Source of the DNA: Pseudomonas frederiksbergensis
GTDB taxonomy: Bacteria > Pseudomonadota > Gammaproteobacteria > Pseudomonadales > Pseudomonadaceae
Assembly (NCBI RefSeq): GCF_035751725.1
Contig: NZ_CP142104.1
Span: 4,526,001-4,590,000 of the forward strand
Length of the DNA stretch: 64,000 nt
Direction of reading: 5' to 3'
Positions 43,335-47,760 of this stretch are shown in pieces. The position numbers were made by a program, and so were the translations under genes. Every line of letters begins with the position of its first letter. Position 1 is the stretch's first letter. Below the pieces are notes generated by a model. The model was not told where the DNA came from. It did no database searches and saw nothing but the letters and a program-made list of their open reading frames with translations.

Positions 43335-44684
43335 CTAGGCTGTCGCCACCACACCCTCCGGCACCACCACTGCACTCATCCCATCCTTCATCCGCTTGGC
43401 ATCGCGCACGAAACAGCGTGACGCCAGGAACAGGAACACCATGGTCAGGAGCAGCGCCACCGGGATGAGGTACATCGCGTCGTGCAGGCCGATGGCCTTG
43501 AACGCTTCGGTCATTTGCGGGGCGCCTGCGGCCGCCATTGCCGTGTGGGCGAAGTAGTCGGACAGGCCGCCTACCACCACCGGCCCCAGGCCGCCGCCGA
43601 GCAAATACAGCCCGGCAAAATACAAGGCCATCGCCGTGGCGCGCAGGCGCGGCTCAACCACGTCCTGGATCGCGGTATAGACGCAGGTATAGAAGTTATA
43701 GGCAAACAGCCAACCGACGCTGAACACCGCCACGAACACACTGATCTCTATGCGCCCGGCATGCAGGGCCCACGCCGTGGTGACGGTGGAAATGGCCAGG
43801 CTGAACGCTGCAAAGAGCAGGCGCCCGTTGGGCACGCGCTGGTGGATCTTGTCCGCGACCCAGCCGCCCAGGGTCAGACCGAACAATCCCGTCACGCCCA
43901 CCATGATGCCGGTGGCCACGGCCGCCTCGTGCAGCGGCATCCCGAAATAACGTTGCAGCATCGGCACCAGGAACGAGTTGCAGGCATAGGTGGCGAAGTT
44001 GAAGCAAAGCCCCGCCAGCACCAGCCAGAGAAAGGTCGGAATCGCCAGCACTCGGCGAACCGGTTTATTGACCTTCTCCTGGGACACCTGCACGGTTTCC
44101 GCCGCGCCGCGCTTGGGCTCCTTGATGAAAAACATGAACACCGCCAGCACCAACCCCGGCACCGCTGCAATGAAGAACGGTGCACGCCAGCTGTCGAAGG
44201 CCTTGACCATCGCGCCAATGGTAAAGAATGCCAGCAGCAACCCAATCGGCAGCCCCAGCATGAAAATACCCATCGCCCGCGCCCGGCGGTGGGCCGGGAA
44301 CAGGTCGCCAATCAATGAGTTGGCCGCCGGTGCATAGCTGGCCTCGCCGATGCCCACGCCCATGCGTACCACCAGGAACGCCCAGAAACTGCCCACCAGG
44401 CCGTTCACCGCCGTCAGTCCACTCCAGGCCGCCAGGCCCCAGCCCATCAACTTGCTGCGCGAGCCGGTATCGGCCATACGCCCCAGCGGCAAGCCGGCAA
44501 TGGCATAGACGATGGTGAACGCGGTGCCAATGATGCCGATCTGGAAGTCGCTCAGGCTCCATTCCATGCGGATCGGTTCGATGATGATCGCCGGGATGGT
44601 ACGGTCGAAGAAATTGAACAGGTTGGCCAGGAACAGCAGGAACAGAATGCGCCAGGCATTCGCCGCTTGGGTCGAGTTCTGCAT
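43335..44684 (-). CDS. Spinster-type MFS transporter
   Basis: A 449-residue, 12-helix major facilitator with FNFFDRTIPAIIIEPI in helix 1, motif A LPLGRMADTGSRSKLMG and GIGEASYAPAANSLIGD in helix 4, typical of spinster-like carriers. Substrates of bacterial members are mostly unknown (lipids, sugars, organic acids). ATG at 44684 was chosen over a frame 51 codons longer; GAGACGGA lies before it. The leader has AACAATAA, so it may be under catabolite repression like its pob neighbours. Confidence 0.85.
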   Translation of the reverse strand: MQNSTQAANAWRILFLLFLANLFNFFDRTIPAIIIEPIRMEWSLSDFQIGIIGTAFTIVYAIAGLPLGRMADTGSRSKLMGWGLAAWSGLTAVNGLVGSFWAFLVVRMGVGIGEASYAPAANSLIGDLFPAHRRARAMGIFMLGLPIGLLLAFFTIGAMVKAFDSWRAPFFIAAVPGLVLAVFMFFIKEPKRGAAETVQVSQEKVNKPVRRVLAIPTFLWLVLAGLCFNFATYACNSFLVPMLQRYFGMPLHEAAVATGIMVGVTGLFGLTLGGWVADKIHQRVPNGRLLFAAFSLAISTVTTAWALHAGRIEISVFVAVFSVGWLFAYNFYTCVYTAIQDVVEPRLRATAMALYFAGLYLLGGGLGPVVVGGLSDYFAHTAMAAAGAPQMTEAFKAIGLHDAMYLIPVALLLTMVFLFLASRCFVRDAKRMKDGMSAVVVPEGVVATA

Positions 44685-45047
44685 GGGTCCGTCTCTTTTT
44701 ATTGTTGGGCGAGGCATCCGAGCCCGGAGTCTGCAATCTAGACAGCCGGGCGCGAGCTGTCTCCAATCATTCGCATGGCTGATACCGAACCATGGCGCAG
44801 GGCGTGTTTCATGACGTTGGTCAATTTGCTGTAACAATTGCCATCATTTTGCCTGTTCATGATTAAAGAACGCCGGGCGATGGCCGATCCAACATGATCA
44901 GGAATAGATTCTCCCGAGCGCTGCTCAGGCTGCAGCCCTGAACGCTTGGGCCGACATTCGCGTCGCCATCAAAGGACGCGAGTTCCCATTCGCGATGGTT
45001 CGACGACCCAGATCGTCGATCCGACCAGTCCAGGCATACGGCGCACA
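44685..45047. other. Divergent gap before the tubulin-like gene
   Basis: This 363-base stretch holds the leader of the MFS gene with a CA motif (44699-44706), a small CAATT...AATTG inverted repeat (44822-44840) and an AT-rich tract near 44845-44870 that could be promoter DNA. A frame in phase with the tubulin-like gene runs back to TTG 44946, but its residues look non-native. No RNA gene is evident. Confidence 0.6.
44699..44706 (-). promoter_or_regulatory. Crc/Hfq-type CA motif in the spinster-type MFS leader
   Basis: AACAATAA on the minus strand, 14 bases before the ATG and just upstream of the ribosome site. Confidence 0.55.
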
Positions 45048-47222
45048 ATGACCTCCAAAAAAACAGCCACTGCGGTTTCCGATCTGACCCTGAGCCCAGC
45101 CGCCAACGGCCCTGAAACCTCGACACTGTCGAGCAGCTCACGATCCTTGGCCACCCAGCAATACCTGTATTTCACCGAGACCAACACCGACCGCATCCTC
45201 GACAACCTCGACGGCCTGCGCGATGCCGTGTTCCCGCGCCCGCCGCATCTGGTGGACGACGAGAGCGAACGTGGCCAGCAGGAATTCCCTTCGGTGTGCC
45301 TGATCGGCCTGGGGCGCTGCGGGTCCAATATCGCCCTGGACGTCGCGGAGCTGGTCTACAACGCCCGCAAGTTCTACCTCAACGAATTCAACGCCGAAGA
45401 CAAGAACTACGGTGACAAGAGCTATCGCCCGGCCCAGTGGATGCGCAACCTGCGCCTGGGCACCAGCAAGGCCAGCAAACCGGTGTTCCTGGTGGAACCG
45501 CTGGTCATGCTCGGCGACCTGGACAAGGACATCGCCGGGCGCATCCGTTTCTCGCGCAAGGGCGAGAAAAGTGGCTTTTTGCGCGACTACAGCAAAATGA
45601 AAATCATGGACCTTTCGGAAGTCCATGCCGGCGGTGCCGGTAACGCGCCGATCCTCGGCCAGTACCTGGCCAAAATCATCCTGAACAAGGACACCCAGCG
45701 TTTTTCCAGCCCCGACTGGAAAATGATCCACTCGTACCTGATCGACAGCTGCGGCATCAAGGCCAACCAGTCGCGCCTGTATTTCTCGATCTTCAGTGCC
45801 GGCGGCGGCACCGGTTCGGGCATGGCCTCGGAGTTCGGCCTGGCCCAGCAGTACTCGTACATGAACAAGACGTTCGACACCAAGCCGATGGACGAGCATG
45901 ACAGCAAGAGCGGCCATTCCTTCGTCTTCGAGCCGATCTTCACCAGCGGCATCTGCGTGCTGCCGAACATTTCCGACCATCGCAGCGAAATGTCCGAGGC
46001 CTTGCACATCAACGCCGGACGCCTGCTGTGCAAATACCTCTCGGAAGAATGGGATTTCTCGTACAACTTCGCCAACGAAGACAGCAGCGAAGCCAGCGTG
46101 ATGGGGCGTATCCGTCCATGGAACGCGATGATGCTGATCTCCAACGACATCATGCGCTACGCCGAAGAAAGCGATGACGGCAACATCCAGAACATTGATG
46201 TCAATGCCATGGAGAAGCACGCCAACCAGTACATTTCCCAGCAGATCTTCAACATCCTGACGGCCCAGGCCGTCACTACCGACTACGACCAGAACTACTT
46301 CCGTCGTGCCGGCATCGACATTGGCGAAACCATTCGCCTGGACGCCAACGACTTGTTCATGAGCCTGGCCGGTCCGGTGGCAATCGCCTATGCCGAGTCT
46401 GTCGTCCCGGAAACGCCGGCGCCGAGCGGCGACAAGTTCAAGGTGTTCGAGAAAGAGCCGCCGCGCCTGAACATCGACGACCTGTTCTTCCGCTCCATCG
46501 ACCTGCCGCACTTCAACAAAGTCACCCAGGCCATCGAGGGCATCAGCCTGTTGCCCATCGAGTCCAAGCGTTACCGCGCCTCGCTGGAGCAATACAGGAA
46601 CTCCGGCTACGACGCTGCCGCCCTGCACGACCTGCACTTCTTCAAGAATTGCTCGTCGGTGGTATCGATCGTCTCGTTGCCGAAGGACTACAAACTGTCC
46701 TACATGGACCTGAACCGGCTCAAGACCCACCTCAACAGCCTGTTCCCCAACACCACCCTCAAGCGCTACGCGTTGGTGATCGGCGCCTCGGCCAACCTGT
46801 CGCTGACCACCCTGATCGCCAAGAGCCCGTGCCTGTCGGACGACTTCCTGACCCTGATCGTGGCGTTTATCAAGCGCTGCTTCGCCCGCACCCCGTACCG
46901 CTTCGACGAGACGCTGGACAATTCGATCCTGGACTTCATCATCAATGAAGACTTCGACGAAGCACGCATCGACGATCTGCTCAATGAATTCGAGAACCCG
47001 GCCAAGATCCTCGACACCAACTGGTACGCGATCAAGCCGATGTACGAGAAGAAGTACCGTGAGCTGATCAGCGACAAGGAGAAGTTCGTCTCGATCAACG
47101 ACATCCGCCTGTCCCGGGATTGCGTGAAGAAATCCATCAAGTACCTGCGCGAGATCTACCGTCACCGGATCGGCAAGACCAAGGTTATTTCCCTCAATAA
47201 CCATACGGGCAAGAGTTATTGA
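45048..47222 (+). CDS. Tubulin/FtsZ-superfamily GTPase-like protein, 724 residues
   Basis: The nucleotide-binding elements of the tubulin/FtsZ fold appear in order. T1 loop: LIGLGRCGSNIA (residues 85-96). T3-like loop: HAGGAGNAPILG (193-204). T4 signature: SAGGGTGSGMAS (250-261). S6/H7 segment: MMLISNDIMRYA (361-372), with Asn366 placed like the guanine-contacting Asn. Possible T7: RLDANDLF (430-437). Residues 1-80 are a polar extension, and the C-terminal part (about 465-724) has no recognised domain. It is much longer than FtsZ or TubZ and probably falls in the little-studied Tubulin_2 (PF13809) group. ATG at 45048 has a weak ribosome site. It stands alone, followed by strong hairpins. The role is unknown. 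Confidence 0.8.
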   Translation: MTSKKTATAVSDLTLSPAANGPETSTLSSSSRSLATQQYLYFTETNTDRILDNLDGLRDAVFPRPPHLVDDESERGQQEFPSVCLIGLGRCGSNIALDVAELVYNARKFYLNEFNAEDKNYGDKSYRPAQWMRNLRLGTSKASKPVFLVEPLVMLGDLDKDIAGRIRFSRKGEKSGFLRDYSKMKIMDLSEVHAGGAGNAPILGQYLAKIILNKDTQRFSSPDWKMIHSYLIDSCGIKANQSRLYFSIFSAGGGTGSGMASEFGLAQQYSYMNKTFDTKPMDEHDSKSGHSFVFEPIFTSGICVLPNISDHRSEMSEALHINAGRLLCKYLSEEWDFSYNFANEDSSEASVMGRIRPWNAMMLISNDIMRYAEESDDGNIQNIDVNAMEKHANQYISQQIFNILTAQAVTTDYDQNYFRRAGIDIGETIRLDANDLFMSLAGPVAIAYAESVVPETPAPSGDKFKVFEKEPPRLNIDDLFFRSIDLPHFNKVTQAIEGISLLPIESKRYRASLEQYRNSGYDAAALHDLHFFKNCSSVVSIVSLPKDYKLSYMDLNRLKTHLNSLFPNTTLKRYALVIGASANLSLTTLIAKSPCLSDDFLTLIVAFIKRCFARTPYRFDETLDNSILDFIINEDFDEARIDDLLNEFENPAKILDTNWYAIKPMYEKKYRELISDKEKFVSINDIRLSRDCVKKSIKYLREIYRHRIGKTKVISLNNHTGKSY

Positions 47223-47270: not shown

Positions 47271-47309
47271 CTTGAGCGACACCGCAGAAACAACATCCAG
47301 AAACAATTA

Positions 47310-47327
47310 AGCAGCCAAAAGGCTGCT
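47310..47327. terminator. Short hairpin AGCAGCC-AAAA-GGCTGCT
   Basis: Perfect seven-base stem with a four-base loop. There is no long T-run, so intrinsic termination is uncertain. Confidence 0.5.
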
Positions 47328-47351
47328 CGATAAACTGTTCCCGTTACGTAT

Positions 47352-47454: not shown

Positions 47455-47760
47455 TCAATTCGATGCCCTTTCCTGGATCATGATCCAAGGCGAAACCACC
47501 ACGGCCCAGAGTTGTGGATCACGCTCGAAAAAATCCAGCGCCCGCGTTTCAGACAGCTTGGCGACCTGCCCGGCGCCCAGCCAGGCGGCGACTTTGGTAC
47601 CTTCGTCCTGGGCAACGGCTTCGGCTGCGGCGATCAGATCCAATGCCGGGTCGACCCACAATAGGGCACCCTTGGCAAAGAACGGCTCCAGCTCTTTCCA
47701 AGTGATAGATGCGGTTTCACCGAGCAATTTGGCATAGAGGGTGCTAGGTTCTTGATTCAT
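47455..47760 (-). CDS. DUF2288-family protein
   Basis: A 101-residue soluble protein with TLYAKLLGETASITWKELEP at the N-terminus and a WVDPALDLI segment, features of the DUF2288 family. No function is known. The pattern is helix, strand, helix, strand, with no membrane segment. ATG at 47760 has a weak upstream site. It is divergent from braC and convergent with the tubulin-like gene. Confidence 0.75.
   Translation of the reverse strand: MNQEPSTLYAKLLGETASITWKELEPFFAKGALLWVDPALDLIAAAEAVAQDEGTKVAAWLGAGQVAKLSETRALDFFERDPQLWAVVVSPWIMIQERASN

Follow-up and report, generated by a model that had tools for sequence, protein, structure and literature searches.

Among the bacterial members of the FtsZ/tubulin superfamily, the best match to the gene analyzed here is FtsZl2 (FtsZ-like 2), a family found through its GGGTG(S/T)G signature, with PFL_1302 of P. 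fluorescens Pf-5 as its type (Makarova and Koonin, 2010; PMC2875224). In that report, FtsZl2 is described as proteobacterial, as having T1, T4, T6, T7 and H7, and as carrying a C-terminal region of approximately 300 residues with mixed alpha/beta structure and no known relatives; no gene associations are given there, and the protein is predicted to make filaments. The gene of interest occupies positions 45048..47222 of a 64,000 nt stretch of the Pseudomonas frederiksbergensis chromosome (assembly GCF_035751725.1, contig NZ_CP142104.1, positions 4,526,001 to 4,590,000; hereafter the window), and its 724-residue product fits FtsZl2.

The 2010 report also presents an HHpred match that supports membership of FtsZl2 in the superfamily, and discusses, under FtsZl1, divergent members that possibly do not form filaments. 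A figure legend there sets Chromobacterium, Marinomonas and Pseudomonas side by side, and we take these to be FtsZl2 rows (PMC2875224). Of two further papers, one separates Tubulin_2 proteins from the main FtsZ/tubulin tree (PMC9871819), and the other describes additional bacterial tubulin genes that belong to conflict systems (PMC7159879). The original prediction, made from the DNA letters alone, expected little experimental work on Tubulin_2, where it placed the protein, and no experiment on FtsZl2 and no tested function was found in the open literature searched. Because the window protein fits a family published in 2010, it belongs to a known but uncharacterized group, to which we add the near-invariance of its loops, its spread, a test for phage or plasmid origin and a weak lead to cyclic-di-GMP.

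Loop motifs and family assignment

The predicted 724-residue reading frame is real. An open frame of 758 codons begins with TTG at 44946, and relatives favor the ATG at 45048, which gives 724 codons with the stop ending at 47222. Ratios of nonsynonymous to synonymous substitution rates (dN/dS) against four relatives are 0.05, 0.06, 0.12 and 0.14, indicating purifying selection; the gene is intact and strongly conserved. Its features are as follows.

45048..47222, + strand: FtsZl2-family gene, 724 aa from ATG (translation, relatives, dN/dS)
45168..45236, + strand: residues 41-63, a stretch near the N terminus with partial conservation that follows the variable residues 1-40 (alignments)
45306..45329, + strand: T1-like loop GLGRCGSN, residues 87-94, invariant in 95 rows except L88
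45624..45650, + strand: T3-like loop HAGGAGNAP, residues 193-201 (GGAGNAP at 195-201), invariant except A197
45801..45821, + strand: T4 signature loop GGGTGSG, residues 252-258, invariant in 95/95 rows
46134..46157, + strand: T6-like segment LISNDIMR, residues 363-370 (LISNDI at 363-368), invariant except I364
46200..46271, + strand: candidate H7 helix, residues 385-408, strongly conserved
46335..46364, + strand: T7-like segment RLDANDLFMS, residues 430-439 (LDANDLF at 431-437), invariant in 95 rows
46473..47195, + strand: mostly conserved C-terminal region, residues 476-716, after a variable linker at 453-475 (alignment)

All five tubulin/FtsZ motifs quoted in the original prediction are present in the expected order. 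The alignment that shows their conservation has 95 rows, namely the window protein and 94 relatives with identity down to 58% (A4; its column numbers plus 35 give residue numbers). Since the loop positions are invariant throughout except at L88, A197 and I364, the motifs are not chance resemblances. Identity is at least 57% to every relative compared, among the matches listed, and together with the near-invariant loops this suggests that FtsZl2 proteins depend on their nucleotide loops. In FtsZ, the NxDxxD loop holds a catalytic acidic pair with the same spacing as D432-x-x-D435, which is kept in the window protein; R430 stands where FtsZ has asparagine, and the equivalence of RLDANDLFMS to the FtsZ loop is proposed by motif.

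Residues 1-40, 66-78, approximately 116-143, 276-285 and 453-475 and the final residues are the most variable. Of the approximately 80 polar residues first noted in front of the motifs, 1-40 are variable, but 41-63 are partly conserved. The C-terminal extension proves longer than the 260 residues first estimated, with approximately 285 following T7, of which approximately 476-716 are mostly conserved (506-525 and 616-645 less so); as anticipated, it has no significant Pfam or PDB match.

Membership in FtsZl2 is proposed from the published description and the motifs. Profile hidden Markov models give scores below their curated cut-offs for the window protein: 18.1 bits against 33 for PF00091 (Tubulin), whose matched stretch at residues 246-261 contains the GGGTGSG loop, and 14.5 bits against 27 for PF13809 (Tubulin_2). 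No further Pfam family, PF12327 (FtsZ_C) included, matches at E 1 or better. These were the three families that the original prediction named for checking, and its guess of Tubulin_2 is not borne out; a Tubulin_2 search of the same genome was also empty at E 0.001. Five relatives score at best 24.8 bits for PF00091 and 18.8 bits for PF13809, both below cut-off, and one of the relatives (P0228) bears a precomputed PF13809.13 label despite sub-cut-off scores. The same two families recur weakly in 34/34 diverse members scanned. PADLOC returned no match to the window protein, and NCBIfam returned one at chance level only. Three protein searches, each scoring approximately 8000 candidates, yielded 638, 653 and 647 relatives; the best 120 of each were listed, so more distant relatives may exist.

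When residues 262-452 were compared with an FtsZ profile, the score exceeded those of the reversed profile and of every one of 25 shuffles, but the 16 matched columns do not line up with the T6 and T7 loops. We dropped the idea that the C-terminal part is an FtsZ C-terminal domain, as the profile comparison for residues 530-612 was equaled by 18/25 shuffles. A weak DUF6562 match covers the T6-to-H7 region in 13/34 members (best E 0.007; in P0235, residues approximately 342-421, E 0.003) and is probably due to chance.

Structure prediction for the window protein was poor (mean predicted local distance difference test score, pLDDT, 47.8), both models being of low confidence, and Foldseek found no significant match with the low-confidence model. 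The candidate H7 residues are modeled as a helix at pLDDT approximately 42-44. Up to residue 705, the C-terminal region is modeled with mixed strands and helices, partly at low confidence: 14 of 23 ten-residue blocks have pLDDT 60-87, and the others 31-57. Because these models are poor, the tubulin fold is proposed from the motifs and the published profile match.

Distribution among genomes

The suggested survey of Pseudomonas finds FtsZl2 in 99/149 genomes of the genus, with one match each save one genome with two pieces; one further match in that scan spans residues 379-723 only. Outside the genus, its occurrence in other Gammaproteobacteria is patchy: 2/369 genomes in a class sample (the window genome included), 9/398 in a phylum sample (the window genome and five of the same genus included; one copy disrupted), 13/244 in the order of the host (the window genome and two of the same genus included) and 31/345, two disrupted, in the order of another carrier, G878. 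Sister genera of the same family gave 0/6 among the phylum sample listed. A contig-wide scan confirmed at least 445 loci, of which 80 were listed; the named genera among these are Pseudomonas, Marinomonas, Rheinheimera, Alkalimonas, Alishewanella, Arsukibacterium, Agarivorans, Aliagarivorans, Paraglaciecola, Colwellia, Neiella, Marinifaba, Corallincola, Cellvibrio and Marinobacter, which belong without exception to the Gammaproteobacteria.

A quick tree was built from 125 of 128 rows, leaving out three with a stop inside the matched span. Paraglaciecola marina falls within a Marinomonas group, which suggests horizontal transfer; a long-branch warning applies elsewhere in the tree. In line with the lack of phage or plasmid context noted from the sequence, 50,697 phage and 72,556 plasmid records contain no FtsZl2 match. 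In G878, a disrupted copy lies in pieces with stops (L021 and L022; G878:C1:2486898-2489631), and a 210-aa frame between two of the pieces resembles an SGNH/GDSL hydrolase by signature.

Gene surroundings and neighboring GGDEF genes

The predicted chromosomal setting with no division gene alongside is what we find, as shown by the neighboring genes:

43335-44837, divergent: upstream neighbor, major facilitator superfamily (MFS) transporter gene (domain search)
47455-47760, convergent: downstream neighbor, DUF2288 gene (domain search)
from 48100: branched-chain amino-acid transport cluster including a BraC-like gene (read from translations)

With a divergent gene on one side and a convergent gene on the other, the FtsZl2 gene stands alone. 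A terminator-like hairpin at 47309-47328, between it and the DUF2288 gene, is oriented for the DUF2288 side, as its T run is on the - strand; terminator-like sites in the region number 6, against 3.6 (s.d. 1.9) in shuffles.

For comparison we collected 140 loci and the window, which left 128 after 13 duplicates were dropped. Neighbors of FtsZl2 vary by genus. In the first 80 loci, the widest neighbor cluster covers 6/19 host labels, and no fixed partner gene was found among the 128, which group into 33 distinct neighborhoods. In 11 of 13 named Marinomonas loci, among the matches listed, a gene that reads as Ppx/GppA-like lies two to three frames upstream (L024-L029, L031, L033-L035, L039).

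Diguanylate-cyclase (GGDEF) genes recur near FtsZl2. Frames within 2 kb occur in 47/128 loci (0.50 Mb of flank), and a further seven frames, of four types, are found at distances of 2-10 kb (1.77 Mb of flank). The 47 near loci represent seven protein types (domains checked for six): MHYT-GGDEF-EAL in 27 loci, ammonium transporter-PAS-GGDEF-EAL in 11, NMT1-GGDEF in 5 and four singles. No EAL-only neighbors were found. Across species, upstream and downstream placements number 26 and 1 for the MHYT type, 3 and 8 for the ammonium transporter type and 2 and 3 for the NMT1 type; the lone downstream MHYT-type gene (L153), one of the weaker matches, is possibly a paralogue. In Marinomonas-type loci, the ammonium transporter-GGDEF-EAL gene is always on the FtsZl2 strand, whether upstream (L033, L034, L150) or downstream (L024-L028, L039, L146, L148). 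In one Alkalimonas locus, a 1015-aa propeller-GGDEF gene (L048:12100-15147) separates FtsZl2 from the aldo/keto reductase-like gene, which in the four other Alkalimonas loci comes immediately after FtsZl2.

In six of the 33 distinct neighborhoods a GGDEF gene lies no more than 2 kb away, where 1.3 are expected (P = 0.0016, post hoc) from a background density of 917 matches over 91.9 Mb, taken from 20 FtsZl2-carrier genomes that we selected. Seeds for the GGDEF profile came from motif matches in the first 80 loci, at both short and long distances. The P value is uncorrected for other families, since the link was noticed after looking, and it becomes 0.03 with 60 assumed draws and 0.39 with 128, the larger numbers allowing for the repeated opportunities in neighborhoods that comprise many loci. 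Shifted-center controls were spoiled by the same neighbors falling in them, and under a looser earlier grouping, 3 of 10 over-merged contexts contained GGDEF. Within the genus, FtsZl2 and the MHYT-GGDEF-EAL gene are both present in 76 genomes (side by side in 75), FtsZl2 only in 23 (including the window genome), the other gene alone in 22 and neither in 28 (Fisher P = 0.0001, uncorrected for common descent; 11 weaker MHYT-GGDEF-EAL matches scored as absent). The MHYT-GGDEF-EAL gene is therefore not obligate for FtsZl2, and each often occurs without the other.

A search of 9 kb to either side of the window locus shows no GGDEF frame, and its genome has no MHYT-GGDEF-EAL gene at the threshold used. 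The GGDEF link is a weak lead rather than a partner, and is inapplicable to the window's own locus. With seven GGDEF types within 2 kb, three of them on either side in different species, FtsZl2 might be a tubulin-like filament, encoded on the chromosome and connected to cyclic-di-GMP signaling, that positions or answers diguanylate cyclases; we consider this a long shot. If true, the switch between swimming and surface life would gain a link to a bacterial tubulin, and two large fields would be joined.

Proposed role and comparison with known systems

The observations behind the original prediction are confirmed, and its interpretation is partly supported. We favor, with a probability of approximately 0.55, a GTP-binding, filament-forming protein with an accessory scaffold role outside division. 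GTP would most likely be bound through the T1-T4 loops, as the motifs suggest. Subunits would probably assemble head to tail, D432 and D435 of T7 completing the GTPase site of the next subunit as in FtsZ and tubulin, where this acidic pair works across the subunit interface. The filament may then serve for scaffolding or positioning, and a partner would perhaps be bound by the conserved C-terminal region. We infer the fold, GTP binding and hydrolysis, polymerization and scaffold role from the motifs and the superfamily.

A superfamily member could instead act as a GTP-binding switch or adaptor without polymerizing, the filament contacts having given way to its inserts and C-terminal region. 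The inter-loop spacings, longer than in FtsZ, and the mostly conserved C-terminal region of approximately 240 residues would suit such a protein, as would the possibly filament-less members discussed for FtsZl1 in the 2010 report (PMC2875224), but the interface-acting T7 pair is invariant here, and we regard this alternative as unlikely. Somewhat less probable still is a nucleotide-binding family that is no tubulin homologue and whose glycine-rich loops arose by convergence. The GGGTG match that persists with a reversed profile, the sub-threshold Pfam scores and the lack of a significant Foldseek match for a low-confidence model speak for convergence, yet the correct order of the five loops and their near-invariance, the two weak Pfam families common to all members scanned and the published HHpred match (PMC2875224) all argue for homology.

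An accessory FtsZ at the division site is very doubtful. Superfamily membership is what speaks for it, whereas a separate ftsZ is present (1.13 Mb, versus 4.57 Mb for the window gene), no division gene adjoins in the window, none was recognized by eye near relatives among the matches listed (no systematic search was made), and FtsZl2 was not found in 50/149 genomes of the genus. Capture of a phage or plasmid DNA-positioning tubulin of the TubZ or PhuZ type would account for a single gene with patchy spread and signs of horizontal transfer. The empty phage and plasmid records and the one chromosomal neighborhood common to 49/128 loci largely refute it, leaving it extremely improbable. This single-gene member in an easily handled Pseudomonas makes the role of non-division bacterial tubulins directly testable.

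Compared with known systems, the window protein shares GGGTGSG and the T3 letters GAGN with eukaryotic tubulin. It resembles FtsZ in the T1-T7 loop order and the T7 DxxD spacing. It differs in its length (724 aa versus 397 for the host's own FtsZ), in GGGTGSG versus the GGGTGTG that the host FtsZ carries, as predicted of FtsZ generally, in its longer inter-loop spacings, in the lack of an FtsZ_C match and in a gene position outside a division cluster. FtsZl1/Tubulin_2 (PF13809) proteins are similar in superfamily motifs and weak profile similarity, whereas the window protein falls below that family's cut-off and its gene directly adjoins MFS and DUF2288 genes rather than the vWA, OmpA or kinase neighbors described for FtsZl1. 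Its features agree with those of FtsZl2: a GGGTG(S/T)G loop, T1, T4, T6 and T7 motifs, a long C-terminal region without recognized relatives, no fixed gene neighbors, and members in Pseudomonas and Marinomonas, two of the three genera that we take as FtsZl2 rows in the figure legend of the 2010 report (PMC2875224).
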